Source: Ectothiorhodospira sp. BSL-9 (GTDB taxonomy: Bacteria; Pseudomonadota; Gammaproteobacteria; Ectothiorhodospirales; Ectothiorhodospiraceae). From it: a stretch of DNA of 64,000 nt. The DNA lies in the NCBI RefSeq assembly GCF_001632845.1, contig NZ_CP011994.1, positions 2,986,001-3,050,000 of the forward strand. Reading direction: 5' to 3'. The notes below the pieces were generated by a model. It ran no database searches. It was not told the DNA's origin and was given only the letters and a program-made list of their open reading frames with translations. Position numbers and translations under genes: made by a program. Positions 10,674 through 33,749 of this stretch are shown one piece after another (within the stretch, counting starts at the first letter, position 1; each line of letters opens with the position of its first letter).

Positions 10674-12056
10674 GAGTTATTGTCAAATCTGGTGTACGGC
10701 GGTCAGGCGGCCTTCCTGTCTGACTGATCGATTACTTGCTCTCCGTCCTGGAACTTGACGTTGTTGACGACCAGTTCCAGTTTCTGGAAATGCTTGATGC
10801 GTCTCCAGCGCTTCTGGGCACTCTGGAGCAGCTTGAATACCATCGCCAATGTCGTCGCCCGGGATCCGCAGCTCCGGCTGCGCTTGGTCCGCAGGCGAAC
10901 CGTGGAGAAGGTCGATTCCACCGGGTTGGTGGTTCGGATGTGCACCCAATGCTCCGCAGGGTAATCGTAAAATGCCAGCAGCTCATCCCGATCCTTTGCC
11001 AGGCAGGCCATCGCCTTGGGGTACTTGGCCTCGAAGCATTTCAGGGTGCGATCAAAGGCCTGGTGAGCCATTTCTCGGGTCTGCGCCATCCAGATTTCCT
11101 GGAGATCGGACTTGACCTTGGGCTGCACCGACTTGGGCAGCTTGTTGAGCACATTCGCTGTCTTGTGGACCCAGCAGCGCTGATGGTCCGTCTGTGGATA
11201 GATCTTGCTCAGCGCTGCCCAGAAACCCATGGCACCGTCGCCCACAGCCAACTTGGGGCCGGTGGTGAGGCCGCGCTCCCGCAAGTGGGTCAGCAGCGCC
11301 TCCCAGCTATCCGCCGACTCACGGAAGCCATCCTCGACAGCCACCAGCTCCTTGCGGCCATGCTCCGTGACCCCGATGATCACCAGCAGGCACAAGCGGT
11401 CATCCATGCGCACCTTGCTGTAGATGCCGTCAGCCCACCAGTAGACGTAGCGGCGGTCTGACAGGTCCTGCTGCCGCCACGCTGTGTGCTCATCCTCCCA
11501 CTGCTTCTTGAGCCGTGAAACCGTGTTGGCCGAGAGCCCCTTGGCCTTCTCACCCAGCAATGCCCTCAGGGCCTCCTGGTAGTCCCCGGTGGAGACCCCC
11601 TTCAGGTAGAGCCAGGGGATCAACTCCTCAACGCTGCGAGCCCGCTTCAGGTAGGGCGGCAGCAGACTGCTGTTGAAGCAGGCGCCACCGCCACTGCGGT
11701 CACGCACCTTGGGCACCTGGACGCTGACATCACCGATCCCGGTCTGCACCGTGCGCTCGGGCAGGTAGCCATTGCGAACCACCGCCTGGCGCCCATCGTC
11801 GAGGCGCTGCTCGGCATACTGCGCCAGGAAAGTGGCCAGTTCGGCCTCGACCGCCTGGGCAATCAGGTCGCGGGCACCCTGGCGCAGCAGCTCGTGCAGC
11901 GGATCCGTGGCCTGCGGTTCTGGTTGTGAAACAGCTTGAAGGGTAGACTTGGTCATGGCGTATCCGCTTTTGTTGATTGAGATCTTGGTCGTGATCAATC
12001 AACAGGATACGCCACCTTCACTTCCTCCCCCCATACACCAGATCTGAGCTTAACTC
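10674..12056 (-). mobile_element. Complete IS256-family insertion sequence with 8-bp target duplication
   Basis: The terminal inverted repeats are 10674-10699 and 12031-12056; 21 of 26 positions match, including the core ATCTGGTGTA. Identical 8-bp direct repeats TGCAAACC flank it at 10666-10673 and 12057-12064. That is the target-duplication length typical of IS256, so this is an unrearranged, probably recent insertion. The element carries one transposase gene. It sits upstream of the set 2 secretion operon. Confidence 0.95.
10703..11956 (-). CDS. IS256-family transposase (mutator type, DDE)
   Basis: 417 residues from the ATG at 11956 (MTKSTLQAV). The frame is open to 11998, but the downstream start fits family length. 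It has the mutator-type layout: an N-terminal helical region with [12 protein letters not shown], the PYLKR segment, a first catalytic Asp in [13 protein letters not shown], a second in VGDGAMGFW, and a C-terminal Glu in [11 protein letters not shown]. No internal stops or frameshifts are visible, so it is likely active. Confidence 0.95.
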
Positions 12057-13532: not shown

Positions 13533-15882
13533 TCAATCCTGAAGCCAGCGCACCAGCAGACTCCGGAGCTCCTTGCGGGTGTAGGGCTTGCTGAGGTGGT
13601 CGTCCATGCCTGCCAGGCTGTAGCCCCGAACGTCTTCCTTGAGCACGGCGGCCGTCAGGGCAATGATGGGAGTGCGCCGTTCGGCGGGTTCCTGCTCACG
13701 GATGCGGCGTGCAGCCTCCAGCCCCGTCATCAGGGGCATCTGACAATCCATGAGGATGAGCTCAAAGCGCTCGGCACTGGCCAGGCGGACCGCGGCCTCG
13801 CCATCGCCCGCGCAGGTGACCCGATGCCCGAACGACTCGAGGGTTTCGCCCACCATCTCCAGAATCTCGGGGTTGTCATCCACCACCAGGATGTGAGCAC
13901 TTCTCATCCTGGCCTTTGTGAGGCTGCCCCCTGGGTTTTCCTGCACGGGCGTTGCAGGTAACCGGGCAACGGGTAACTGCAGTTCCATGGTGAGGGTGGT
14001 GCCCTCCCCCTCCTGGCTCTCCACACGGATCTGACCGTCCAGGGCCTGGATCAGGTTGTGCACGATGGCCAGCCCCAGGCCTGTTCCACCGGGACGCGTC
14101 GGGCCTTGATGAGACTTGTAGAATGGCTCGAACACACGCTCCAGCACCTGGGCACTCATGCCCACGCCCGTATCCGAGACCTGTATGTGGATACGATGTA
14201 ACGCATCGTCGTCACCTTTACGCCGGTCTGCCCAGGCGCGCACGGTGATGCGACCGTGCTCGGTGAATTGGTTGGCATTGCCCACCACGTTCGACACGAC
14301 CTGCCTGAGGCGCAGGGCATCCACCCATACACCTTCGGGTACGGAGGGATCGATATCCACAACCAATCGATTGCCCCGCCCGCGTACCACACCATCCATG
14401 AGTTCCAGGCTCTGACGCAGCAGGCCCGGCAGGTTCACTGCCTCGGGATTGAGCGTGATCTGCCGTCCCGCCTCGGATTCACTGAAATCCAGAATGTCAT
14501 TGATGATGCCTCGCAGCATCTCGCAGCATCTCGCAGGAACGGCGCAGTGCGGTGACATAGCGATGCTGACGCTCGTCCAGGGAGGTTTCCATCAGGGTTT
14601 CGATCAGGCCCAGCATGGCGGTGAGGGGTGTGCGTACCTCATGGCTGGTCATGGCCATGAACAGGCTCTTGGCCTGGTTGGCCCTCTCGGCCTCCTCCTT
14701 GGCCTGCATCAGGGCCAGCTCCGCCTGCTCCAGGGAGGAGATGTCGATGGATACTCCCAGGCTGGAGCCCTGGTCTTCCGGGTCAAAGGAGTAAATGGTG
14801 AGCAAGGAGGGAAAGCTCTCGCCCCCATGACGATTCAGACGCATGCGGCCCCGCCAGGCCTGCCCTGTCCGCAGGGTGGCCAGCATCTCCGGGAAGCGCG
14901 CCACGTCCTCTGGCTGATGCAGCATGGCCACGGGCTGGCCGATCGCTGCATCGCGCGCGTAGCCGAACAGGTTTTCGGCACCGGGGCTGAATTCGGAGAT
15001 GACCGGTTGGCCCATGTCCGGATCGCTGCGGGTGATGATGAAGGCCACATCCTGACTGGCTTGAAAGATGGACTCCAGGGTGACCTGTTTTTGCTTCAGC
15101 TCGTGGATGTCCCGGCCCACGCCCAGGATCTCCACAATCTCGCCCCGCTCATCAAGGATGGCGCTATCTTCCCAGTGAAACCAGCGCCAGCCGTCCACCG
15201 TCATGGCCCGCTGTTCCACCTGGATGCGATGAGGGGGCTGCAAAAGCCCCTCCATGGCCCGGAGGGTGTCGGCGATATCGTCCTCATGAACCAGGGGAGC
15301 GAAGGAATGCCCTAGCAGTTCGTCGCGGGTCTTGCCAAAGGTGCGGCAGTAGGTATCGTTGACGAACAGCAATCGATTCTGGGCATCCACCCGCACGATC
15401 AGATCATGCTGGGACTCCACCAGGCTACGATAGCGCTGCTCGCCCTCTTTGGAGCGATAGCGTTCATACTGTGCCTCCACCAGCAGGCGCAGCGTGGTCT
15501 CAAGGGCGCGCAGCAGAGCCAGAACCCGATCGGCCTCGCCACTGCTCACCGCGCCCCTGCCGTCCAGGTGGGGTAGCTGGGCGATGAGCCAGAGCGGATC
15601 ATCGCCCACGCCCAGTTCCATTCGCCAGCACACCTGTGTGCTGCGGGCCATGGCCTGCGTCACTGCCGACTCGCCCCGGCCCTCCCAAGGACGCCCCCAG
15701 GTCCACTCTATGTTCGTGTTCTCGGGTACGGAGCTGGCCAGAACCCTCGCATCCAGCTCACTCACCAGCGCCAGCCGGACAGAGGCCGCCTCGGCCAGGC
15801 CGGTCAGCACCTCTTTGAGGCGCGCCATGGGCATCAATGACTCAAGACAAAGCCCCTCCAGGGCGATATTGTTCTCCATCAT
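13533..15882 (-). pseudogene. Hybrid sensor histidine kinase (PAS-HisKA-HATPase-REC) split by a 10-bp tandem duplication
   Basis: Two overlapping frames form one gene. The N-terminal frame (14497-15882) holds a leading sensor region, PAS domains (one with SLVESQHDLIVRVDAQNRL) and the H-box MAMTSHEVRTPL. It then runs out of frame after RRSCEMLR. The C-terminal frame (13533-14558) resumes with GIINDILDFSESEAG, the HATPase motifs (VGNANQF, DTGVGM, GGTGLGLAI) and a receiver domain (LILMDCQMPLMTG). The cause is TCGCAGCATC repeated in tandem at 14511-14520 and 14521-14530. Removing one copy restores a continuous frame of about 779 codons, matching its paralogue at 20762-23065. It may be an inactive allele, a reversible switch, or an assembly error. 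Confidence 0.88.
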
Positions 15883-16055
15883 TCAAGGATTCCCGATCAG
15901 CACGTTGGCGAGGCGGCCGTGGTTCATTCATAGGGTCCGACGACAGTGGGGCGAGATGCCCCACGCAAATACAGGGATATCATGCCTTGCGTGCTGTGGG
16001 CGCGGTCAATTGTTCCGAATCGCTCCCGAACTGGAAGCTTTGTGGTCACCCGACA

Positions 16056-16979
16056 CTAGATGTCGAGCAGATGCTCCTGGGCACACTCCTCAAGGAATTG
16101 CTCCATGCGCAGTGCTGCGTCGTCCGTAAGCCAAAGGAACACCCGTCGCCGATCGCTGGGATCCCGCTCCTTGCGCACCAGCCCCCTGTTCACCAGCTCT
16201 TCCACATGCCGCAGGGCCGTCGTGAGGGGAATGCCCGAGCCCACCGCCAGGCTGGAGACGTAGTCAGGCCGCCCGGCCAGACGGGCGATCATCAGATCGA
16301 TCAGGATGTTCCAGGTGGCGCCGTTGCACACATCGGGGTCGAAATAGCGACCGCGCAGCACGCGCGCTTCAGCTGCCCCGCGCAACAGACGATGCGTACC
16401 CGCTTCGGTGTGATCCTGGGCGGCGCGTGCGCCCTCACGGGTCACCGCACCCTGCATCGACTTCTCTCGCCCCGACTCCTGATCCGGGTCCACTTCCTCT
16501 TTCTCGGAGTGCAGGTAACGCAGACGCGATTCGATCTTGTTGAGCTGTCCGCGGGTGAGGTTCAACACCTCCCGGAACTGGCGTCTTTCCAGGTCCCTGC
16601 GCAAGGCTGTGCGAATCGCCTTGACGAACTCCTGCTCGCGAAACGGTTTGAAGAGGAAATCCGTCGCTTCCATCCGCAGCGCATGCTGGACATGATCCCG
16701 CGAGGCATAGCCGCTCATGAAAACAATTTCCACGCGCTCCTCCCCCTGATCACGCGTGAGGGCACGAACCAGATCCAGGCCATCCCAGCCGGGCATGCGC
16801 ACATCCGACACCAGAACGCGGATGTCTCCATCCGCTTTGAGCATGTCCAGTGCCTTCTCCGGATTCACGGTGGTGATGGGAGCGAAACCGGCCCGGGAGG
16901 ACATCGCGCTCAGCTCATCGAGGATGTCCGACTCGTCATCCAGTATGAGGATCTTGCATTCTTCATCCGAGATGGACAT
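16056..16979 (-). CDS. Response regulator with receiver domain and C-terminal MarR-like winged helix
   Basis: 307 residues from the ATG at 16979, chosen because AGGAGG lies 6 nt upstream; the frame runs open further but without a site. Residues about 8-125 are a receiver domain with the acidic pair in ILDDE, the phospho-acceptor in VSDVRMPGWDG, and FKPF at the usual Lys. A coiled linker follows (RGQLNKIESRLRYLHSEKEE). The C-terminal 90 residues resemble a MarR/EPS-type winged helix (IPLTTALRHVEELVNRGLVRK). It is probably a DNA-binding output for the neighbouring kinases, transcribed toward the broken hybrid kinase with about 170 nt between them. Its partner kinase is not proven. Confidence 0.87.
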   Translation of the reverse strand: MSISDEECKILILDDESDILDELSAMSSRAGFAPITTVNPEKALDMLKADGDIRVLVSDVRMPGWDGLDLVRALTRDQGEERVEIVFMSGYASRDHVQHALRMEATDFLFKPFREQEFVKAIRTALRRDLERRQFREVLNLTRGQLNKIESRLRYLHSEKEEVDPDQESGREKSMQGAVTREGARAAQDHTEAGTHRLLRGAAEARVLRGRYFDPDVCNGATWNILIDLMIARLAGRPDYVSSLAVGSGIPLTTALRHVEELVNRGLVRKERDPSDRRRVFLWLTDDAALRMEQFLEECAQEHLLDI

Positions 16980-17365
16980 TTCCAGCCTCCTGCCTTGCTG
17001 CCGAAAAACAACGATGAAACGACCCGAGTGGTCCCTGCCATTGCCGACCGTTATCCCATGGCAGCGGTAACCCAACGACGCCCGTCACCCAAAATCATTC
17101 TGATTGGATCAGTTTAAAGCCGATGAGATGGGCGTTCATAGGCGAAACCGGGGCATTCACTCCAAATTCGAACCTTTTGTCTGAAACTTGAGGTTCACCC
17201 CATCGAAGTGGCAAGCCAGGTGAAAATCGGCATGCCTTTAATCCCCACGCCCGCGCGTACCCCGTCCGAAACGGAACCATTTCACGTTTTTTTTCTCCAG
17301 CCAAAACGGCACCTTATAGGCGGAGAGTGAACGATTCGACTCATGGTGAACAGGGGAGGTGTGTC
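16980..17365. promoter_or_regulatory. Divergent intergenic region between the winged-helix regulator and the Cas3-like operon
   Basis: This 386-nt non-coding gap separates two divergent transcription units, so both promoters should lie here. The ribosome-binding sites for both genes are visible at its edges. No clear -35/-10 pair, sigma-54 site or operator repeat could be assigned by eye. Confidence 0.45.
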
Positions 17366-17623
17366 ATGGACAACGGAGTCCCGCGCTCCATAGAGGTCTA
17401 TCGCGAGGTCAGCGAGATGGCGCCTTCATCAGTCCACGATGGCAGCCAGCCCGTCATGGTGGGCTATATCGCCAAAGTGCCCTATTCGGGTGATCAGGCG
17501 GCCATGCAGCACCTTTCAGAAACGTTGCCAGCACTGGTGACCCTCTGTGTGGTGGCCTTGGTCACCACCCTATCGGCCGCGCTGCTGGTCATTCTCATCA
17601 CAGTCATGACGACGCTGACCTGA
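17366..17623 (+). CDS. Small membrane protein of unknown function, paired with the Cas3-like gene
   Basis: 85 residues from the ATG at 17366, which has GGGGAGG about 6 nt upstream; the frame is open from 17327. The N-terminal about 50 residues are polar. A strongly hydrophobic segment (about residues 53-80, rich in Leu/Val/Ala/Thr) then makes a single C-terminal membrane anchor, with only a few residues after it. No family is recognised. It lies 15 nt before the Cas3-like gene in the same direction, so the two are probably one transcript. It is divergent from the receiver/winged-helix gene, and the shared 16980-17365 gap should hold both promoters. Confidence 0.65.
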   Translation: MDNGVPRSIEVYREVSEMAPSSVHDGSQPVMVGYIAKVPYSGDQAAMQHLSETLPALVTLCVVALVTTLSAALLVILITVMTTLT

Positions 17624-17638
17624 ACCGGAGATCAGACC

Positions 17639-19447
17639 TTGGACGCACTGGCGCTCAACCCCTGTGTACACGCGTCGGATCACCCGGCTGCGGACGAATT
17701 CTTTTATGGCGCCTTTCGCGCGCTGCTGGGTGAAGCCCCCTATCCGTGGCAGTTCCGCCTCTTCGAACAACTCGTTGAGGGCCGCGCCCCCACTCATGTG
17801 GCCATCCCATCAGGCTGCGGGAAGAGTGCCGTGCCCGCTATCTGGTTGCTCGCCGTCAGTTTCGCGGCACTGGTTCACAAAAGCGGACCTGGTCACCACC
17901 TGTTCATCCTGCGTCACACACTGCCCCAATCCGACACCGACTGGCAGGTGGCCAGGTCAACGCTCAATGCCCTGGTCACGGCCAACCTGGCCTTTGGTTG
18001 CAACAACCCCCTCACCCCGGTACTCAAGGGTTTGCAGTCGCTGTGCCAGGAGAATTGCAACACCCCGCTAAAGTTACTGGAAGACGGCCAACCCCTGGCC
18101 GGCAAAACCTCCAGGAACGGCCCCACCATCACCTTGGTCGATGCGCCGCCGATTCATCTGGCCGCGCCGGCGCCGGTCCATGTCCTGCAGACGATTGCCC
18201 GGCAGATCGGGGTGCCCCAGGATGGCTCACTGTGTTTCTGGCCCCAGGGCTACCTCACCCGCGCCTCTGGAAAGGCTCGCGCTGAACCAGGGGCAGACGA
18301 TGCGGTGCTTGCCCTGGACAAGTCGGATCATTCGGACCATCGTCTGTCCCGAAGGCTTCACCCCAGTCGCAGCATCGTGGTGGATCCCACCCACGACGAC
18401 AACTGCGTGCGCACCATGCTGGGTTGGGCATTACAGTTCGAATCCCAGCGCAAATGGGTGCTGATATGCACCACCGATCCCGCCAAGGCGGAGGCGATTC
18501 ACAAGGGCCTCTCAGCCAGTCTCTCGCCGGGCCGGGTGCTGCGCGTGGGCAGCGAACAACGCGCTGCTGAATGCAGCGAGACCTTCGAGTCGTTCCAGGC
18601 TCAGGAATTCTTCATGGGAGCCCGCGGGCTGACCCCAGAAACCGTCTACTTGCTGTGTACGGACGATTACCGCTGGGTGGGTGATATCGATGCGGATGTG
18701 GGCATCTTCGATCACGCCAGTGAAGGCCAGCAGGCATGGCGTGCCTCCCGCGTGAACCGCTCTGCCCAGACCCGGGAGGGGGTGGTGATCCAGCTTGCCT
18801 GCCCCGAGGACGAGGCCATCGGCCAGCGCACCGGTGTGACGCGCCAGCCCATGACCACCGTACTCTGGCGCACCAGCCTGCCATTGATCCAGGATGTTTC
18901 AAGCTGGTTGAACACCTTCCCGGTTCAGCCCCGTGAGCGCTTGCAAACCACACAGGCGAACGTACACCGTTTTCTCAGGAACCACGCGCGCCAGTGTCCA
19001 CACGAGCAGGCCCTGTTGATTCCCCCCGAGTCCGCGCCCGAGTATTTGACCATGGAGAGGATATTGCGTGAACCGCATCGCCTGGAACGCGCCACCCTCA
19101 TCCTGCCCTCACACGCCGGCGGCCTGCGGGGAGGCTTCCTGGCGGCAGAGGCAGAGTATCCGGTCAGGGATCTGGCGGATGTGGACAACATTCGTGAACG
19201 CTGGATCGTTTATCGCAGCGGGCGTTTCTGGCATGGCAGGCGTTTACAGGGCATCGACAGATCCCAGCGCCATGCGCTGGGTGCCGGCCAACCTCGCCAG
19301 GCCCTTTCTGCCCTGGAAAAGAAGACGGGCCTGGAACTTGTGCACGATGTCTTCTCGGAATTCATGTTGCCGACCCACGTGGATGGCACGCCAGAAGCCT
19401 ATCAAACCTGGCTGGTCCATCCAGACATGCCAGACATGAAAGCGTGA
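17639..19447 (+). CDS. Degenerate type I-G (I-U) Cas3-like helicase without HD nuclease
   Basis: 602 residues in one uninterrupted frame. The order of segments follows the Cas3 helicase of type I-G CRISPR systems. There is a PYPWQFRLFEQL lead-in (34-45), a Walker A-like PSGCGKSAVPAIWLLA (57-72), and a strand resembling the motif Ia region (HLFILRHTLPQSD, 87-99). LVDAPPIHL (167-174) sits where DEAH is expected. A second RecA-like half follows, with TVYLLCTDDYRW (335-346) then GDIDAD at the motif V position and WRASRVNR (367-374) at motif VI. A C-terminal block (ILPSHAGGL, then VRDLADVD) resembles the I-G-type tail. Motif II is lost, motif VI is altered and no HD domain is seen, so ATPase activity is doubtful. 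No other cas gene or array is present. The assignment rests on remembered family sequences, not a search. Confidence 0.6.
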   Translation: MDALALNPCVHASDHPAADEFFYGAFRALLGEAPYPWQFRLFEQLVEGRAPTHVAIPSGCGKSAVPAIWLLAVSFAALVHKSGPGHHLFILRHTLPQSDTDWQVARSTLNALVTANLAFGCNNPLTPVLKGLQSLCQENCNTPLKLLEDGQPLAGKTSRNGPTITLVDAPPIHLAAPAPVHVLQTIARQIGVPQDGSLCFWPQGYLTRASGKARAEPGADDAVLALDKSDHSDHRLSRRLHPSRSIVVDPTHDDNCVRTMLGWALQFESQRKWVLICTTDPAKAEAIHKGLSASLSPGRVLRVGSEQRAAECSETFESFQAQEFFMGARGLTPETVYLLCTDDYRWVGDIDADVGIFDHASEGQQAWRASRVNRSAQTREGVVIQLACPEDEAIGQRTGVTRQPMTTVLWRTSLPLIQDVSSWLNTFPVQPRERLQTTQANVHRFLRNHARQCPHEQALLIPPESAPEYLTMERILREPHRLERATLILPSHAGGLRGGFLAAEAEYPVRDLADVDNIRERWIVYRSGRFWHGRRLQGIDRSQRHALGAGQPRQALSALEKKTGLELVHDVFSEFMLPTHVDGTPEAYQTWLVHPDMPDMKA

Positions 19448-19463
19448 TCCAGTCCCACCCCCA

Positions 19464-20099
19464 CTACAGCATCAACGGGGGCAGGATGCGATCCTCCTTC
19501 AGGCAGGCCAACATCTCATTGATATTGCCCTCGGGAATGAGGCCGTATAGCAGTCGCCTGACATCGTCTGCGCTCAAGGGTTGGCTGCGCTCATCGTCAT
19601 CCGGGGTGCATTCCATGACGAATCGGCGTCGTAAACGGGTCAGCCCGCAACTGCGCAAGACCGCATCACGCACTTCGGGCATGGATACGGGCTTGAGTAG
19701 AAAGTCATCCACCTTACGCCGAAACAGGCGTTGCACGAAGTGCTCGTCCGCGCCACCGGTCATGGCAACAACGCCTGGCGGCACCTTGTGCGTGCCCATA
19801 AACCATTGACGCGCCTCATCAATCAACGCAAAGCCATCATTTCCGGCCAACATGATGTCCACCAGAAGACAATCCGGCTCAAACCCCTCCTTGAGCACAT
19901 CCAGCGCCGTGGCCACGCAATCGCAGGCCACGCTCCGGATCCCCAGGCGCTTCAGGTAGTCGTTGACCTCCTGGCAGATTGCCACTTCATCGTCCACCAC
20001 CAGCACGCAGAGTTCATCGCTGGCGCGCGCGCCCAGCGGCAACGCCTGAGTGCTGTGCTCAACGACCTGCTCACGGAAACTGTGGACCTTCGACGTCAC
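19464..20099 (-). CDS. Receiver-domain protein with C-terminal helical extension
   Basis: 211 residues. After about 28 variable residues there is a receiver domain (about 29-150) with the acidic pair in LVVDDE, the phospho-acceptor Asp in CLLVDIMLAGNDG, the Thr in AMTGG and the Lys in LLKPVS. The remaining 60 residues are helical and show no known DNA-binding or enzymatic motif. Its start overlaps the stop of the next receiver gene by 4 nt, so the two are coupled. It converges with the Cas3-like gene, with only 16 nt between their stops. The output mechanism is unknown; a phosphorelay or protein-interaction role is likely. Confidence 0.87.
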   Translation of the reverse strand: MTSKVHSFREQVVEHSTQALPLGARASDELCVLVVDDEVAICQEVNDYLKRLGIRSVACDCVATALDVLKEGFEPDCLLVDIMLAGNDGFALIDEARQWFMGTHKVPPGVVAMTGGADEHFVQRLFRRKVDDFLLKPVSMPEVRDAVLRSCGLTRLRRRFVMECTPDDDERSQPLSADDVRRLLYGLIPEGNINEMLACLKEDRILPPLML

Positions 20100-20629
20100 G
20101 AACAGGCATCCTTCCCCAGCTCCACACCCAATTCGGCATCCCGCCGGCTCAATCCCTCGCGAGTCACGGCCTTGATTTTGCGCAGGGATACAGGCTTGTT
20201 CAAAAACGCCAGGGCACCCTGCCCCACGGCCTCCTCGGCCAACGCCACCGTACCGTGCCCGGTGATGACCACCACCTGCACACCGTGGAATTGCTTCCAG
20301 CGCTGGAATCTGCTGTCCTTGAGCAATTCCATGCCGTTGCCATCGGGCAAACGCAGGTCGAGAAACACAATGGAGGGAGGCGTCTCATCGTCCATGCGAC
20401 GACGCACCTCCCCAAGTTGGCAGGCGTGCCAGCAGAGAATGCCCTGCCGGGATATGGCGGAGGCCAGCTCACTTCGGATCAGTGGGTCATCCTCAACAAT
20501 CAATGCCCAGCGATCAAGCTGGGACGCCGCGGAAGACAAACAGTCGGCCTTGGGCGGGCTTTCTTCCGGCATGCAGCCCAGGAAGTCAAGCTCTTCCTCG
20601 GTCAGGATGGGGTGTCTGGATGTTGGCAT
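20096..20629 (-). CDS. Stand-alone receiver-domain response regulator
   Basis: 177 residues. About 38 N-terminal residues (including LTEEELDFLGCMPEE) precede a receiver domain with the acidic residues in LIVEDD, the phospho-acceptor Asp in IVFLDLRLPDGNG, the Thr equivalent in VITGHGT and the Lys in FLNKPVS. The pattern resembles NtrC/FixJ-type receivers, but no output domain follows. It is translationally coupled to the downstream receiver gene. A deleted copy of this gene, with its leader, survives at 4800-4910. It probably takes phosphate from the kinases encoded just upstream. Confidence 0.88.
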   Translation of the reverse strand: MPTSRHPILTEEELDFLGCMPEESPPKADCLSSAASQLDRWALIVEDDPLIRSELASAISRQGILCWHACQLGEVRRRMDDETPPSIVFLDLRLPDGNGMELLKDSRFQRWKQFHGVQVVVITGHGTVALAEEAVGQGALAFLNKPVSLRKIKAVTREGLSRRDAELGVELGKDACS

Positions 20630-20761: not shown

Positions 20762-23065
20762 CTAGCCGGATCGAACATGCTTCCCCGGCGCCGGGGGAGC
20801 AGGCAGCCATTTTGTCAACATGCTGGAGAGTTCCTTGCGGGTGTAAGGCTTGGGGAGCCAGTCGTCCATGCCCGCATCGAGGTAAGCCTGGCGTTGATCC
20901 TTGGTCAGGGCCGCCGTCAGGGCGATGATTGGAACCTGGCGGTTCCTTTCATCATGAAGGCGTATTTTCTGGGTGGCCCGAATGCCATCCATCACGGGCA
21001 TCTGGCAATCCATCAGCACCAGGTCGATATCCGCCAGTCCCGGCTGTTCGCAGTATGCCACTGCCTCGGCACCGTCACAGAGCAGCTCCACCCGGCAGCC
21101 CAGCCGCTCCAGGGTTTCCCCCAGCAACTCGCGCACGTCATCGTTATCCTCCACCACCAGGATCCGCGGTGCACGCTGCGCAGTACCAGCAGAGCCCTTT
21201 TCCAGCGACGACCTCCCGCTCGCTGCTTCCTTGAGCAGCAGTGGTGGCAAGGCATTGAAGCTTCCGGTGGCGTCTCCGTCTTCAAGATCGGCGGGCGGTA
21301 ACCACAATCGAAACCATACCCGCGTGCCCATGCCCGGTTCACTCTCCACGCCCATGTCGCCGCCCATGGTGCGCACCAGGCTCTGCACGATCGGCAAACC
21401 CAGACCCGTTCCTCCCGCACGGGCCATACCCACGTTGGGGGCCTGAAAGAACGGCTCAAACAGCCGTTCCTTCACTGCTTCATCCATGCCGATCCCGGTG
21501 TCGCTCACCTGGAACCGCAGCGGGAGCCTGCCTGACTCCAGCGATCGGGAGGCAGGGCGCTCCCGGCTCACACGCACGGTAATCCGCCCACCCTCGGTGA
21601 ACTTGATGGCATTGCCCACCAGGTTCCATAACATCTGGCGCACCCTGAGCGGGTCCACCATCACACCCGCGGGCAGATCATCCGCCAGGACCACTGACAA
21701 GGTGTTCCCCCGGTCTCGTGCCGAGGGCTCCAATAATTGCAGGCTATCCCGCACCAGGCGGTGCAGCGCTGCCGGCTCAGGATGGATGCGCACCCGACCG
21801 GCCTCGATCTCGCTGAAATCCAGAATATCATTGATGATCCCGCGCAAGGCCTCCCCGGATTTGAGCAGCGATCGGGCATGGCGTTGCTGATGCGGGTCGA
21901 GCGGCGAGTCCAGCAGCATTTCGGCCACGCCCATCATGGCGGTGATGGGGGTACGAATCTCGTGGCTGACCGTGGCCAGAAAGCGGGATTTAGCCTCGCT
22001 GGCGGTACTGGCCTTCATGGCCAGCTCCTTGGCCTGGTCGCGGGAGTGGATCAACGCCCGCTGGGCGCGGCGAATCTGCCGCTGCTGGCGCCGACGAATC
22101 TCGGCATTGGCAAACATGTCCGCCATGGTGCGCAGGATGGCAACATCCACGCTACCCCACCCACGGTGCGCCCGGACGGCATCGAAACCCACGAACCCCT
22201 GGCATTGCTCATCTCCCATGATGGGAATGGTGATGTTGCTCTTGATGCCCTGGGGGCCCAGTATCTGGCGCAGTGGGTCATCCTCACTCAAGGCCTGCAC
22301 ATCCGGCACGTTGTAGACCTCACCGGCACTATGAGCCTCTACCCAGGCCTCCAGCCCCTGCAATGGCGTTTGCTGCAGGTTGTCCATCTCGCTGGTGACC
22401 CCTTCGGCGCACCATTCGTGGGTATTGCTGGCGGTGTAGGCCTCCAGATCATAGGTGAACAAAAACGCCCGATCCGCCCTCACCAGGCGGCCAATCCTCT
22501 CCAGTCCCTCGGTGATCAACGGATCCAGCTGGGATTCCCGGGCATTCATGAAGCGCAGCGAAAAATGCGTCAGCAGCCGTTCGAAATGCCCCCACCGCTC
22601 CAGCTCCTGGTTTTGCACGCAGGCCTGGCAGGATTGCGCCAGCTTGTCGGCCACGGCGCGGAATGACTCACAAAAGGAACCAGAAAGCGGCTCCCCGGCC
22701 ACGAGCAGCACCAGCAGCCCGTAACCGGGCAACTTGAACACGTGAAAAGAGTACTTGCCTCGGGTAAACACCGCCATGCCGTCGCCACCCGGTTGTTCCA
22801 GGTGCTGCCACAGCAAGCGCGGCGGATGCGCCACCAGAAAGCCGGCCAGCAGTCCATCGCGCATCATGCGCATCGGCACCGAGCGGGCTATCGACCAGGG
22901 TTGGTCGGGCTCATCCTGCTCGCGGTGGATCACCACTGCCCCCAGACTATTGGTCATCCGCACCATGCTGGAGAGCGCTTCTCCCAGCATGGAATCCAGG
23001 TCCAGGCTGCGACCCACCGACAGGGAGATCTGCAGCAGCACCTGGGTTTCAACGGCCAGGTTCAC
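20762..23065 (-). CDS. Hybrid sensor histidine kinase (GAF-HisKA-HATPase-REC)
   Basis: 767 residues from a GTG at 23065 that overlaps the TGA of the FIST gene (GTGA); the longer upstream frame is the shadow of that gene. There are no membrane segments, so it is cytoplasmic. The N-terminal half contains GAF-like sensing regions (one with RADRAFLFTYDLEAY, another ending IPIMGDEQCQGFVGFD). Then come the H-box FLATVSHEIRTPITAMMG, the ATPase motifs LVGNAIKFTEGG, DTGIGMDE and GGTGLGLPIV, and a C-terminal receiver with LVLMDCQMPVMDG. It is a clear paralogue of the broken kinase at 13533-15882. Coupling to the FIST gene suggests that the two sense together. Confidence 0.92.
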   Translation of the reverse strand: MNLAVETQVLLQISLSVGRSLDLDSMLGEALSSMVRMTNSLGAVVIHREQDEPDQPWSIARSVPMRMMRDGLLAGFLVAHPPRLLWQHLEQPGGDGMAVFTRGKYSFHVFKLPGYGLLVLLVAGEPLSGSFCESFRAVADKLAQSCQACVQNQELERWGHFERLLTHFSLRFMNARESQLDPLITEGLERIGRLVRADRAFLFTYDLEAYTASNTHEWCAEGVTSEMDNLQQTPLQGLEAWVEAHSAGEVYNVPDVQALSEDDPLRQILGPQGIKSNITIPIMGDEQCQGFVGFDAVRAHRGWGSVDVAILRTMADMFANAEIRRRQQRQIRRAQRALIHSRDQAKELAMKASTASEAKSRFLATVSHEIRTPITAMMGVAEMLLDSPLDPHQQRHARSLLKSGEALRGIINDILDFSEIEAGRVRIHPEPAALHRLVRDSLQLLEPSARDRGNTLSVVLADDLPAGVMVDPLRVRQMLWNLVGNAIKFTEGGRITVRVSRERPASRSLESGRLPLRFQVSDTGIGMDEAVKERLFEPFFQAPNVGMARAGGTGLGLPIVQSLVRTMGGDMGVESEPGMGTRVWFRLWLPPADLEDGDATGSFNALPPLLLKEAASGRSSLEKGSAGTAQRAPRILVVEDNDDVRELLGETLERLGCRVELLCDGAEAVAYCEQPGLADIDLVLMDCQMPVMDGIRATQKIRLHDERNRQVPIIALTAALTKDQRQAYLDAGMDDWLPKPYTRKELSSMLTKWLPAPPAPGKHVRSG

Positions 23066-24210
23066 GGCACAGCCCCTGCCTCGGCCCCAGCGAACAGACC
23101 CATGACGACCGACTTGTTGTAGAACTCCAGGCACTCCAGACCACAGTTGGCGATTTCTCCCACCGACAACATCCCCACCAGCGGATAGTCCCGGGTCAGT
23201 ACACGCAATTCCGCGGCGAATCCTTCGTCCATGAACAGGGCCCTGGAAATGCAGTCGCACACCACCCCAAAGTCCGGCGGCATGGGGCCAGGATAGCCCG
23301 CCTGAGCCTGCGATACTGCCCAATCCGCTGCCTTGACCAGATCCCCCGGCACACCGTGCAACAACTCGACGAACATCCCCTCGGGCACATCCGCCACGCA
23401 GGTCAGCGCACCCAGTGCATCCACCGACAACGGGTCACGCACCACCCGCTCGCCACGCAATCGACACATGCCCAGGGGATAGGCGCGCGCCATCTCGACG
23501 AAGTTTTCCTTCGTGATGCGCAGCCCCGAATGGGCCTCAATCAACTCGGCATACACCTCGAACGCCGGGCGGCTGTTCAGGCTCAGTAATCGATTCTGCT
23601 CGGCCCGGGACACCTTCACCGGTTCCGATACGGGCAACCAGCCATGGGCCACACCGATTCCCGCAGGCATGCTCAGCCGGGCCACTACGGCGGCATCCTG
23701 AACCACCCCGCCTGACGTCAGGATGCAGGCACGCCCCGAACCGTCCAGCGCCCCGGCGCCAGCGCCCAGGTAATTGCAATCCAGCCCCACCTGGTCGAAC
23801 AGTGCCGACACCAGATCCGCGATGCGGGTGGAAAAGGCGTCCACAAAGGTGATCAGGGTACATTTGCCGGGACCCTGCGCATCACATGCCAGCTCCGCCG
23901 ACAGCGTATCCATACGGGTCACGGGCTGGCTCAACCCGGTCATCGTGTTGATCATGGGTGCCACCGGTAGGCCGACGACAATGGCCCCCTTGGAGAGCAG
24001 TTCACCATCGGCGATCAGTTTCGGGAACAGGCCGCCAAACAGCGGCAACGTCTGCCGGGTGAGCAGTGCATCCAGGCCGGGAATGTCCACATGATCCTCA
24101 ACGCAGGAGAGGATCATCAAGCCGCGCACCCCGGGCGCCCGGCTGGCCCTCTCCAGGGTGGCGGCCAGCCCTTCCAGGCTGCCCGTACGGTCAAGCCATA
24201 TCGACGGCAT
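23062..24210 (-). CDS. FIST-domain sensory protein (FIST N and C domains)
   Basis: About 382 residues from MPSIWLDR; five extra codons are open upstream. It has the FIST N layout (gGLFPKLIADGE, then GAIVVGLP) followed by FIST C (GMCRLRGERVVRDPLSVD, and a closing segment with GMLSVGEIAN and EFYNKSVVMGLF). Family knowledge: FIST domains are predicted intracellular small-molecule sensors found beside or fused to signalling enzymes. The gene overlaps the membrane kinase upstream by about 20 nt and the hybrid kinase downstream by GTGA, making one kinase-FIST-kinase operon. The ligand is unknown. Confidence 0.9.
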   Translation of the reverse strand: MPSIWLDRTGSLEGLAATLERASRAPGVRGLMILSCVEDHVDIPGLDALLTRQTLPLFGGLFPKLIADGELLSKGAIVVGLPVAPMINTMTGLSQPVTRMDTLSAELACDAQGPGKCTLITFVDAFSTRIADLVSALFDQVGLDCNYLGAGAGALDGSGRACILTSGGVVQDAAVVARLSMPAGIGVAHGWLPVSEPVKVSRAEQNRLLSLNSRPAFEVYAELIEAHSGLRITKENFVEMARAYPLGMCRLRGERVVRDPLSVDALGALTCVADVPEGMFVELLHGVPGDLVKAADWAVSQAQAGYPGPMPPDFGVVCDCISRALFMDEGFAAELRVLTRDYPLVGMLSVGEIANCGLECLEFYNKSVVMGLFAGAEAGAVP

Positions 24211-26245
24211 GTGCCTGTACCTCAACGGCTGGCATCACAAAGGAAAACACCGCACCGCCTGCCTCGTTCCAGCAGTCGATCCGTCCCCCCATGTCACGCA
24301 TGATGCCGTAACTGATGGATAAACCCAGGCCGGTGCCCTGCCCCACCGGCTTGGTGGTGAAAAATGGCTCGAAGAGATGCTCCATCGCATGTCGAGGGAT
24401 GCCCCCGCCATTATCGGACACCTGCATCACCGCCTGTCGAACACCCTTTTCCACTCGCACAAAGGTACGAATCCGCAAACACGCACGGTAATCCGGGTCC
24501 CCTTCGCTGTCGGCCCGGGACACCTGAGTGCGCAGCGCGTCGCGGGCGTTGCTTACACAGTTCAGTAATACCTGCTCCAGGGGCTGCAGTCGACCAAACA
24601 CCACGGCAGGTGGCGAAGCGTGCTCCACCTCCACCTGAACACCGCTCACCGCCAACTGCTGGCCCATGAGGGACAGCACACCATCCACCACTTCCGAGAG
24701 CGTGACGGCATGATCGTCCTCTTCCGCACGCCGGCCAAACACGCGCATGTGGTCGATGATGTCGGCGGCTCGGCGCGCCTGATCGGTGACTCGCCGCAGG
24801 CGGGCCTTGACGTACTCGACGGTCTCTGGAGTCCCTCCTTCCTCTTCCAGGGCCTCATGGGCATTATCCGCCGCCAACTGGATCACCTGCAGGGGCTGGT
24901 TCAATTCATGCGCCACACCGGTGGTCATCTCGCCGAGGGTGGCCATCTTGGCCGCTTGCACCAATTGCGTCTGGCTATACTTGCTCTCACTGATATCCAT
25001 CATCAGTGCCACCACCTCCGGCGTTTCGTCCTCGCGCGCCTCGAGCAGCGTCATGCTCATGTAAATCCATCGATGACGCTCCGGGGAGTCGAGCAAGCGC
25101 AGTTCCATGCTCACATGCCCACGCTGGGCCAGAGTCACCATCATGGAAGACAACCTCTGTGCATCCAGGTCGTGCAAACGGTCCAGCAGCGCCTCCGATG
25201 AGGGAATGCTCTTCATACCGGTGATCTGCTCCACCGCACCGTTGGTGAAGGTGGTCTGGATGCCGCCATCACTCAGCAACTGACCGCACCAGATGGCGAT
25301 GGGAGATCGATACACCAGACGCTCCAGTCGCTGCGTCTGACGCTCCAACTGCTCCCGCTCCACCTTCAGTTTGTGACTCAGACTGACCAGCGCCAGATTG
25401 AGGGCGTCTGGCTCTATCACGCGGCCAGGAATCCTGGGCATGTCAAAAGACTCACGGTTCTTCAGGGCCGCCTCGGCCGTCTCCCTCAAAGGGCGACTGA
25501 AAAGGGCACTCGCGGCAAAGGACAGGAGCAGGCTGACTGCCAACAGGGCCAACGCCGCAACCAGATAAGGCATCAACCGCGCAGCCGGCCATTGGGCAAG
25601 ATCCGGTAGCGGATTGAGATGAAGGTGCATGGTGAGGAAGAGCAAGGGAGGGAGCAGCGTGGCCAGCACCAAGCCGTTGAGAAGGACGGCACGGAAACCG
25701 TAGATACGCGGCGTGAGCGCAGAGCGGATGGCAGAGCGATTGCTCACCAACATCAGCACAACCAGACCGACCGCCGATGCAAAGAGCACCCCGCCAAGGG
25801 CCTGCTTGAACAGCACCACTGCGGCCGTGATCAGGTCCAGTCTTGGATCAGCCTGAACAAGCAACCACCACAGCGGCACGCCCAGCAAGGCCCAGAAAGC
25901 GAACACCGCCAGGGGCAGCTCCACCCGTCGCCGCGAGACAAGCCACGCCACGCACAGCAGTTCCAGCAACAGAATGGGCGGGGCCAGCCAGGTGTTCCAG
26001 AGCCAAAGGGTGGGCAGGCTGGCCAGGGTCAGCCCCACAACGGCATGGGGCAGACCGAACAGAACGAACAGCAAAAGCCCCACCGAGAGGCCGGGTAGCA
26101 GATGCAGATGGAGATCGCCCACGGGCAGGTAGAGCAGCTCCGCCGTCAGGCTGTTGACCAGCAGCGCTGCCGCACCCACACCCAGGCATATCACCCAGCG
26201 CTGCCAGGAGGGAGCCTCCACCCCTAACTTGAACATCCGTACCAC
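24191..26245 (-). CDS. Membrane sensor histidine kinase (multi-TM, HAMP-like, PAS, HisKA, HATPase)
   Basis: 684 residues. The N-terminal about 250 residues form roughly eight hydrophobic helices of MASE-like character. A HAMP-like linker and a coiled coil ([15 protein letters not shown]) follow. Next is a PAS domain (about 310-430, ending [11 protein letters not shown]), then an H-box of the NtrB/PrrB-like class ([14 protein letters not shown]). The ATPase has [25 protein letters not shown] and [12 protein letters not shown]. All catalytic motifs are intact. It is the first large gene of the FIST operon and has no receiver of its own, so the receivers at 19464-20629 are plausible partners. 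Confidence 0.93.
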
Positions 26246-31420: not shown

Positions 31421-31617
31421 GTGGGAACTGGCCTTGCCGGCACCCCTACTGTGGGAGCTGGCCTTGCCGGCGATGCGCTGCGACAGCAGCGCCATGGCCA
31501 TGCCTGGGTGCCCACCGCCTTCGCGGGCGAGGCCCGCTCCCACAAAAAGCCCCTCCCACAAAAAGCCGCCCCTCCCACAAGAGCACCCTCCCACAAGGGA
31601 CTGCCACCTCAACTCAA
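31421..31617. repeat. BIME-like repeat block 1
   Basis: Two forward REP cores (31421 and 31451) are followed about 70 nt later by a converging arm CGCGGGCGAGGCCCGCTCCCAC (31522-31543), then several short CCCTCCCACAA tails. The block is nearly the same as 32176-32368. It fills the space between the sugar transferase and VanZ genes, where no gene is seen. Confidence 0.88.
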
Positions 31618-32175: not shown

Positions 32176-32368
32176 GTTGGAGCTGGCCTTGCCGGCACCC
32201 CTATTGTGGGAGCTGGCCTTGCCGGCGATGCGCTGAGACAACAGCGCCATGGCCATGTCTGGGTGCCCACCGCCTTCGCGGGCGAGGCCCGCTCCCACAA
32301 AAAGCCCCTCCCACAAAAAGCCCCTCCCACAAGAGCACCCTGCCACAAGGGACTGCCACCTGAACTCA
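32176..32368. repeat. BIME-like repeat block 2
   Basis: Near-duplicate of block 1 in the same orientation: two forward cores (32176 and 32207), the same spacer with GCCATGGCCATG, a converging arm near 32277-32300, and the same CCCTCCCACAA tails ending GACTGCCACCTGAACTCA. Confidence 0.9.
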
Positions 32369-32378
32369 TACCAGCCCC

Positions 32379-32503
32379 GTGGGAGCTGGCCTTGCCGGCA
32401 CTCCTACTGTGGGAGCTGGCCTTGCCGGCGATGCGCTGCGACAGCAGCGCCATGGCCATGCCTGGTTGCCCACCGCCTTCGCGGGCGAGGCCCGCTCCCA
32501 CAA
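32379..32503. repeat. BIME-like repeat block 3
   Basis: A third copy with two forward cores (32379 and 32410) and the converging arm ending 32503. Its tail runs directly into the short tandem array that follows. Confidence 0.9.
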
Positions 32504-32519
32504 AAGACCCCTCCCCAAA

Positions 32520-32750
32520 AGCCCCCCCTCTCAAGAGCCCCTCTCAAGAGCCCCTCTCACAAGAGCCCCCCTCACAAGAGCCCCCCTCACAAGAGCCCCC
32601 CCTCACAAGAGACCCCCCTCACAAGAGACCCCCCTCACAAGAGACCCCCCTCACAAGAGACCCCCCTCACAAGAGCCCCCCCACAAAAGCCACCTCTAAC
32701 AAAAGCCACCTCTAACAAGAGCCCCTCCCACAAGGCCCCCTCCCACAAAA
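32520..32750. repeat. Tandem array of 15-16 bp units (CCCCCCTCACAAGAG-like)
   Basis: About 14 imperfect units run from the end of BIME block 3 to the stop codon of the epimerase gene. Variants alternate CCCCTCTCAAGAG, CCCCCCTCACAAGAG, ACCCCCCTCACAAGAG and CCACCTCTAACAAAAG. The unit resembles the REP tail CCCCTCCCACAAAAAG, so the array probably grew by slippage from it. There are no spacers, so it is not a CRISPR. Confidence 0.88.
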
Positions 32751-32753
32751 ACC

Positions 32754-33749
32754 TCAGTTCGCCGTCACCCCCCCACTTTCAAACACATGCTCCCGATACC
32801 AAGCGAAGGTCTTCTCAATCCCCTCCCGCAACGACACCTGCGAGGTATACCCGGTCAAAGCAATGGTCTTGCTCATATCCGGCCCCCGCCGCTCCGGCGA
32901 GCCCGGCGGTGGAGGTTCCGCACGAATCACCACCTGCCGACCCACCACCTCATGGCACGTCCGCGCCACCTCACGAATCGTCACCTCCGGATCCTGCGTC
33001 CCCAGATTCAGGGTCTCCCCCTCGCATTCGGGCAGACGCATCATGCGCAACAGCATCTCCAGGGCATCATCCACATAACAAAAGCACCGGGTCTGATCCA
33101 CCGAAGGCACCGGCACCTCATCCCCATCACCGGCATCCCAAGCCTTGCGCAACTGACCCGGCACCACATGCACCGACCCCATCCGCGGACCATACACGTT
33201 ATGCGGCCGGAAAATCGTATAAGGCACACCCGACGCATGGCACAACACCTCGCCCGCAATCTTGGACAACATGTAAGACGTACGCGGCCGGGAAAGCTCC
33301 GTAATCGCCAGCGGCGTATCCTCCGGCGTGGGAATGGGCAGGTCAAAATACTCCAGCGTGCCCGCATACACCTCACTGGTGGACGGGAACAGAAAACGCT
33401 TCAGCCCCGTCTGCCGACGGGCCAGTTCGATCAGATTCCCCAGCATGTTCATGTTATCCAGCAGCACGTGATACGGCCGTTCCATCACATGCACCACACC
33501 AATGATCGCCGCCAGATGGAAGATATAGTCAAAATCCGTGGGCAGCCCAGCCACCGCCTCCCGGTCCAGACAATCCAGACTGGTAAAACTCACCGCCGGA
33601 TGCGCCAGCACCCGCTCCAGATCCGCATCCCGCACCGCCCGGGAAAAATTATCCACCAAGTGCACCTCAAACCCCTCGGCCAGCAATCGATTGGCCAGGT
33701 GCAACCCCATGAAACCGGCACCACCGGTCAGCAAAACCTTCTCACTCAT
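32754..33749 (-). CDS. NAD-dependent nucleotide-sugar epimerase/dehydratase
   Basis: 331 residues of the extended short-chain dehydrogenase family. NAD-binding TGGAGFMG is at residues 8-15, the catalytic Ser/Thr region is PSTSEVY, and the YxxxK motif is in SYMLSKIAGE. It ends in a sugar-nucleotide-binding half (RPHNVYGPRM). Closest in style to UDP-glucose epimerases or UDP-glucuronate decarboxylases; the exact substrate cannot be told. It overlaps the dehydrogenase gene upstream by ATGA, suggesting sequential steps: dehydrogenase, then epimerase or decarboxylase. The stop codon touches the tandem repeat array. Confidence 0.9.
   Translation of the reverse strand: MSEKVLLTGGAGFMGLHLANRLLAEGFEVHLVDNFSRAVRDADLERVLAHPAVSFTSLDCLDREAVAGLPTDFDYIFHLAAIIGVVHVMERPYHVLLDNMNMLGNLIELARRQTGLKRFLFPSTSEVYAGTLEYFDLPIPTPEDTPLAITELSRPRTSYMLSKIAGEVLCHASGVPYTIFRPHNVYGPRMGSVHVVPGQLRKAWDAGDGDEVPVPSVDQTRCFCYVDDALEMLLRMMRLPECEGETLNLGTQDPEVTIREVARTCHEVVGRQVVIRAEPPPPGSPERRGPDMSKTIALTGYTSQVSLREGIEKTFAWYREHVFESGGVTAN

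Follow-up and report, generated by a model that had tools for sequence, protein, structure and literature searches.

Cas3g, the helicase-nuclease of type I-G CRISPR systems (TIGR02621, cas3_GSU0051), is represented among described proteins by Cas3 of Thioalkalivibrio sulfidiphilus (Tsu). In the accessible part of PMC9638904, Tsu Cas3g mutants in Walker A (K39A) or Walker B (D164A) bind and nick target DNA and do not degrade it. Exaptation from CRISPR is known, as far as the available text of PMC8730458 goes, for whole or reduced systems and for crRNAs, and Cas8 is presented in the accessible portion of PMC3150331 as a putative inactivated Cas10. In a different setting, FIST proteins adjoining kinases sense nitric oxide in other bacteria, and NosP/NosK/NosR operons place a FIST protein beside a histidine kinase and receivers (PMC12570481, accessible part). 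A keyword search of open-access PMC brought up no account of a catalytically dead Cas3 standing alone among signalling genes. The gene described here, which we call pseudo-Cas3, is colinear with Cas3g from the FF...G..P.PWQ lead-in through Walker A and again in the second RecA-like domain, with motifs V and VI and the accessory WR...E...GGL. However, it lacks DExH, SAT, motifs Ia/Ib/Ic and the HD domain, its motifs V and VI are altered, and its genome gave no Cas7g or Cas1 match. Like Cas8, it is a CRISPR enzyme minus its active site that appears to be retained in a non-catalytic role, but the inactivated Cas proteins of the accessible text stay in CRISPR effector complexes, whereas pseudo-Cas3 lies in a two-component locus.

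The gene belongs to a block of signalling genes in the window, by which we mean the whole 64-kb stretch of DNA that was analysed (Table 1). Its frame is uninterrupted over 602 codons, as the sequence-only reading of this DNA had reported, and its start codon aligns with an in-frame ATG-Asp of a counterpart in E. shaposhnikovii. GC content is 58-65% here, so the length of an open frame is by itself little proof and homology carries the weight; an antisense frame of 426 codons lies at 15837-17117. GC content has no clear step at the gene. The sole NCBIfam match of the protein was TIGR02621 (type I-G Cas3; E=1.6e-25), at 90 bits against a curated cut-off of 400 bits, which makes it homologous but places it under the cut-off for members. 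PADLOC matched it to Cas3g (7.6e-32), and nothing in Pfam was significant (best, DUF5535, E=0.075). The E. shaposhnikovii copy matched the Cas3g profile at 2.8e-31, and a profile-profile comparison (hhalign) of the pair with seven canonical Cas3g gave E=4e-29 and a probability of 99.8%, spanning positions 39-531 of the pair profile and 5-636 of the canonical one. The profile searches that the sequence-only reading had proposed as a check thus found the expected Cas3g similarity by NCBIfam, PADLOC and profile-profile comparison alike. We conclude that the frame is a real gene and a descendant of type I-G Cas3.

Table 1 Features of the signalling block and of the cas3-like gene within it (positions in the window).
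Feature	Coordinates	Strand	Remarks
Response regulator, receiver + winged-helix (MarR-like; REC-wHTH)	16056..17075	-	divergent to operon; 70-72% identical in two other species
Small protein gene, C-terminal hydrophobic segment	17366..17623	+	85 aa; 15 nt upstream of cas3-like gene; counterparts in E. shaposhnikovii and G003
cas3-like pseudo-helicase gene	17639..19447	+	602 aa, TTG start; type I-G Cas3-derived, without DExH, SAT, HD domain
P-loop PSGCGKS, retained	17807..17827	+	residues 57-63; alignment; PSACGKS in E. shaposhnikovii copy
Remnant motif V (GDIDAD) to motif VI (WRASRVNR)	18680..18760	+	residues 348-374; alignment
Receiver-domain protein REC1	19464..20099	-	convergent; 16 nt from cas3-like gene end
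Receiver-domain protein REC2	20096..20629	-	domain annotation + comparison
Hybrid kinase, GAF - histidine kinase - receiver	20762..23323	-	domain annotation + comparison
FIST-domain protein (FIST_N + FIST_C)	23062..24225	-	NosP-like nitric-oxide sensor, lead only
Second histidine kinase of cluster	24191..26245	-	domain annotation + comparison

Structure prediction, proposed as a further check, gave a weak answer. Two AlphaFold predictions had mean pLDDT of 42 and 47, so no fold claim is drawn from the models. With the latter model, Foldseek found no match at E<=0.001; its 50 top rows were nearly all helicases or related motor ATPases by title, at E values of 3.5e-3 and worse and with low TM-scores. 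VIA-align did match a segment of this model in the second RecA-like domain (244-377) to Cas3 of Thermobifida fusca (Z 8.4, 3.2 A, 127 residues), tied with many helicases, and these structural matches are not independent of the Cas3g homology because Cas3g rows were part of the model's alignment. Sequence searches of the PDB returned no match for the window protein or for the pair profile; the canonical Cas3g profile retrieved solved Cas3 chains.

To define what had been kept and lost, nine canonical Cas3g (two shortened by contig or locus ends, one trimmed) served as the reference for 67 invariant columns, each with 8 or 9 of the nine rows filled. The window and E. shaposhnikovii copies both retained 27 of the 67, a few of which (e.g. 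D168, H173, L174, L183) fall in a badly aligned stretch and may be chance. Kept in both copies are the F..F...G..P..WQ lead-in, the P-loop GK within the Walker A GK[ST] of Cas3g, the aspartate of motif V, three arginines of motif VI and, in the accessory region, W-R, E and GGL. Neither copy has RR at motif Ia, DE at motif II, AT at SAT, E and G at motif V or Q and G at motif VI, and LRG and GSxLLFxGYG are mostly gone. The stretch that holds the HD nuclease in canonical Cas3g is gaps in both copies, which end near the accessory region. A D[ED]x[HDS] string occurs nowhere in the entire window protein and, in E. shaposhnikovii, is not found at the aligned motif II place; an S[AT]T string search of the window protein was likewise negative. 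The window protein is remodelled between Walker A and motif III (roughly residues 80-215), and the alignment there is uncertain, so individual motif replacements are not to be taken literally. We asked whether ILTLDEDD of the E. shaposhnikovii protein might be a relocated Walker B, and dropped the idea because this string falls after the SAT of canonical Cas3g in the alignment, where the window protein reads VLALDKSD.

These results bear on several details that the sequence-only reading had described. It was right that motif III is not visible and that no HD nuclease is present. Its whole helicase architecture stands for the lead-in, Walker A, the motif V aspartate and the motif VI arginines, but not for the remodelled stretch, nor with 27 of 67 columns kept. 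Its replacement of DEAH by DAPP is correct in that DExH is absent by string search, but DAPP itself depends on the alignment: the D falls opposite the GTVD strand, and PP alone lies at motif II. Motif VI, said to have lost its leading QRxG, reads WRASRVNR in the window and WRLARINR in E. shaposhnikovii against QRxGRxNR; in the window Q has become W and G has become S, but the arginines remain. In both copies, the motifs required for ATP hydrolysis (DExH, SAT), motifs Ia/Ib/Ic and the HD nuclease are lost, and the P-loop, domain-2 arginines and accessory region are retained.

The counterpart in E. shaposhnikovii DSM 243 (NZ_NRSM01000014.1) is full length, 37% identical to the window protein along its length, and sits between the same signalling genes. 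The order common to the two species is a divergent REC-wHTH gene, the small membrane gene, the Cas3-like gene, then the convergent REC, REC, hybrid kinase and second kinase genes, and it ends with a WecA-like gene (named by eye). The linkage of the Cas3-like gene to kinase and receiver genes is thus conserved in both. The proposed comparison with homologues came out in favour of the sequence-only reading: a second species has an intact syntenic homologue that has lost the same motifs, and the REC genes on its flank and the small membrane gene accompany it. The small gene ends where the sequence-only reading had placed it relative to the Cas3-like start. ATG 17366, rather than GTG 17327, is its most likely start, since it matches the counterparts and has AGGGGAGG upstream. 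The C-terminal segment of the small protein is hydrophobic in all three species that carry it (best mean Kyte-Doolittle 2.2-2.9 over 19 residues), a few N-terminal positions are common to the counterparts, and any two of them share a low identity of 28-30% over 63-81 residues. By eye, REC1 and REC2 have the canonical receiver residues, the acidic pair, Asp, Thr and Lys; their genes are convergent to the Cas3-like gene and lie outside its operon. A related REC-wHTH protein in another genome (G022, 35%) has a different context. A promoter scan of 16900-19700 found 0 sigma-70-like sites against 0.8 expected. A stretch like CCAAAT-CGA-CCTTTTGTC at 17160-17188 is common to the divergent intergenic regions of the window and of the locus L052 in genome G003, and is a candidate operator.

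G003 carries the same cluster in a different form. There the small membrane gene and a phosphatase-like gene are 1 nt apart with no Cas3-like gene between them, and in E. shaposhnikovii the last 28 nt of the Cas3-like gene are shared with a phosphatase-like gene. Three arrangements are therefore seen: small and Cas3-like (window), small, Cas3-like and phosphatase-like (E. shaposhnikovii), and small and phosphatase-like (G003). The last of these indicates that the cluster can manage without the Cas3-like gene. Whether G003 has lost the gene or never had it may be read either way, as the kinship of the neighbours disagrees: E. shaposhnikovii and G003 are closest in REC-wHTH (77% identity), and the window and G003 in the hybrid kinase (65%).

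The phosphatase-like protein of E. shaposhnikovii belongs to the LMWPc family by Pfam (1.1e-6) and matches PDB 2cwd (7.3e-6); that of G003 is a 39%-identical relative. The operon partner is thus related by sequence to LMWPc/YwlE (protein-tyrosine/arginine phosphatase), but in both copies it has Thr at what we take to be the place of the nucleophilic Cys and Leu at that of the signature Arg, and no such gene is present at the window locus, a weak match to the E. shaposhnikovii protein lying elsewhere in the window genome (E=0.0017). This protein (L016:12271-12831 and L052:10606-11157), which adjoins the Cas3-like or small membrane gene, would be a second disarmed enzyme at the locus.

A FIST gene lies between the kinases in the window, where it overlaps the hybrid kinase gene, and FIST also occurs in G003; NosP-like sensing is possible. 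The arrangement in the window and G003 resembles that of the NosP/NosK/NosR operons as described in the accessible part of PMC12570481, where a Cas3-like gene is not mentioned, but E. shaposhnikovii has no FIST gene between its kinases. By analogy, nitric oxide as the input of the window cluster is a lead.

Could the gene simply be decaying CRISPR debris, a leftover Cas3g still open by luck? Most of its catalytic motifs are gone, G003 has the cluster without it, and the genus does have type I-G systems, as 2 of 10 Ectothiorhodospira genomes (G001 and G008) gave Cas7g matches. However, an intact counterpart at the same place, 37% identical and with silent sites near saturation, contradicts decay, and so do selection tests on the pair. 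By Nei-Gojobori counting over 560 codons, pS was 0.71 and pN 0.47, giving dN/dS of 0.326, a value that is rough, as are the others given here, because dS is near saturation. For the remodelled residues 80-260 (164 codons) it was 0.23. The five neighbours with an estimate ranged from 0.07 to 0.32, placing the Cas3-like gene slightly above all five; the small membrane gene was saturated in this count. Identity of the pair was 49% and 57.5% at codon positions 1 and 2, and 36% at fourfold sites, where six neighbours in the same species pair showed 32-41%. In neutral simulations, 0 of 100 runs remained stop-free in both copies at each of four distances (0 of 400), the two longest of which fit the 34% identity seen at third positions. 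As two copies are all that is known, conservation is judged from a single pair, 37% identical and with dS close to saturation. The sequence-only reading had asked for dN/dS below 1 and had favoured a repurposed Cas3 descendant over dying CRISPR debris; the profile matches, the syntenic second copy and the dN/dS of about 0.33 uphold this. We conclude that the gene is under protein-level constraint, and we reject decay as highly improbable, given the counterpart in E. shaposhnikovii and the outcome of the selection tests.

The surrounding genomes also speak against a leftover. The absence of CRISPR context, noted earlier from the window letters, extends to the whole window genome, which has no Cas1 match, no Cas7g match and no Cas3g match over the cut-off; in control genomes the Cas3g model fired below its cut-off in 14 of 14, the Cas1 model in 9 of 14 and the Cas7g model in 0 of 14. 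No CRISPR-like array was found in the 64-kb window. The genome-wide search covered Cas1, Cas7g and Cas3g, and the array search covered the window. E. shaposhnikovii has Cas1 matches and no Cas7g match, so that Cas7g is unmatched in both hosts. By comparison, a Cas3g gene adjoins the Cas7g gene in G008, beside a Csb2-like frame (by eye).

Relatives were sought across genomes that sample successively wider groups; the samples overlap, and most species fall outside them. Among 96 related genomes searched in six frames with protein or profile, five matched: the window genome, E. shaposhnikovii (G002), and G008, G023 and G030, the last three with canonical Cas3g carrying DEAH. The same five matched among 47 genomes of the family and order at E<=1e-3, and four at 1e-8. 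In 369 genomes of the class, matches came from the window genome and from 6 more, each of these six with a DExH Cas3g. In 398 genomes of the phylum, the window genome and three others matched, of which G733 and G414 have DExH, the latter within a fragment of 208 aa; the match in G585 is a 155-aa frame with a stop. Two contig scans, both weak as negatives since they depend on short exact peptides, gave no relative in the first case and, in the second, the copy from E. shaposhnikovii together with a canonical Cas3g of Wenzhouxiangella. Seventeen plasmid records gave partial matches, annotated under the match as cas3u in 11 and as hypothetical protein in 6, and none of the 17 covered 80% of the query. 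In a tree, the window and E. shaposhnikovii copies formed a group with support of 100/100, to be read with the facts that only 2 rows are labelled and 36 of 500 shuffles scored as low, that the branch to the pair is long (1.83), and that four rows, including that of E. shaposhnikovii, have unusual letter composition. The two known copies group together, and pseudo-Cas3 is probably lineage-specific, in one part of the genus Ectothiorhodospira.

This patchy distribution, in 2 of 10 Ectothiorhodospira genomes, together with fast divergence, descent from a defence gene and the presence of type I-G Cas7g in as many genomes of the genus, could suit a protein of defence or counter-defence: a disarmed Cas3 acting as decoy, as phage sensor, or as competitor of Cas3g directed against the type I-G systems that incoming elements carry. 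We consider this improbable. The gene keeps the same chromosomal position among two-component genes in both species, neither of which has a Cas7g match, and of four neighbour proteins scanned with PADLOC two matched weakly, through their receiver domains only. The E. shaposhnikovii protein matched none of 50,697 phage records, the window protein was unmatched in PHROGs, and a short-peptide scan of viral contigs found nothing related to the pair and nothing with three canonical Cas3g; with seven canonical Cas3g as queries, the viral contigs yielded one canonical Cas3g.

Because the same gene stands at the same place in a related species, it has probably been given a new job in the window genome. 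Descent and constraint rest on computation; the biochemical role is inferred. With no DExH, SAT or HD, the protein should by analogy neither translocate nor cut, and the behaviour of the Tsu Cas3g mutants, as given in the accessible part of PMC9638904, suggests that processive helicase activity should be absent once DExH is missing. Because the P-loop and the motif VI arginines are intact, ATP could still bind between the lobes. The simplest reading would be a binding protein or switch in an operon with the small membrane protein. The two would be co-expressed; pseudo-Cas3 would bind ATP between its RecA-like lobes without hydrolysing it, would be tethered by the small protein to the membrane or to a signalling partner, and would neither unwind nor cut but act by binding, with a receiver protein, a kinase or DNA as its target. 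Membership of the signalling pathway is suggested by position alone.

Binding of DNA or RNA might instead be the whole function, the RecA-like lobes holding nucleic acid without unwinding it, for example at promoters that the adjacent REC-wHTH regulator controls. The retained motif V aspartate and motif VI arginines, and the adjoining wHTH response regulator, would fit such a role. Against it stands the loss of motifs Ia, Ib and Ic, through which SF2 helicases contact nucleic acid; we regard a nucleic-acid-binding regulator as unlikely, if somewhat less so than a defence protein. Our preferred reading, which we hold to be the likelier one with reservations, is that part of the genus Ectothiorhodospira captured a Cas3g helicase-nuclease, disarmed it and has retained it as what may be a non-hydrolysing, ATP-binding adaptor or switch of two domains. 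Pseudo-Cas3 is thus probably a lineage-specific, selected protein exapted from CRISPR and an ATP-binding, non-hydrolysing partner in a two-component module.

With the disarmed phosphatase-like gene in the E. shaposhnikovii gene run, the operon resembles a set of binding proteins made from disarmed enzymes. A bolder version, which we offer as speculation and think doubtful as a whole, would have Cas3 exapted wholly out of CRISPR as a membrane-linked, ATP-binding, non-hydrolysing adaptor or output of a phosphorelay, possibly responsive to nitric oxide through the FIST protein, in an operon that uses at least two disarmed enzymes, pseudo-Cas3 and the pseudo-phosphatase, as binding modules. If the preferred reading were confirmed, it would mean that a Cas helicase-nuclease can be reduced to a binding or switch protein. 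It would also provide a small, testable system for the origin of pseudo-helicases, because canonical type I-G systems in the same genus allow comparison.

Other features of the window were noted in passing. A PAS-containing hybrid histidine kinase at 13533-15882 (minus strand) is split into two overlapping frames. At the break is a 10-nt tandem repeat of 2.7 copies (14510-14536), perhaps the result of a single duplication, perhaps a slippage (phase-variable) site. An open transposase-like frame of 431 aa (10703-11998, minus strand; by eye) lies near the signalling block. Finally, degenerate tandem units of about 16 nt with the consensus CCCCCCTCACAAGAG occupy 32287-32774, with 14.3 copies and 89% matches at 32523-32740, and a shorter, related array is found at 31532-31596.
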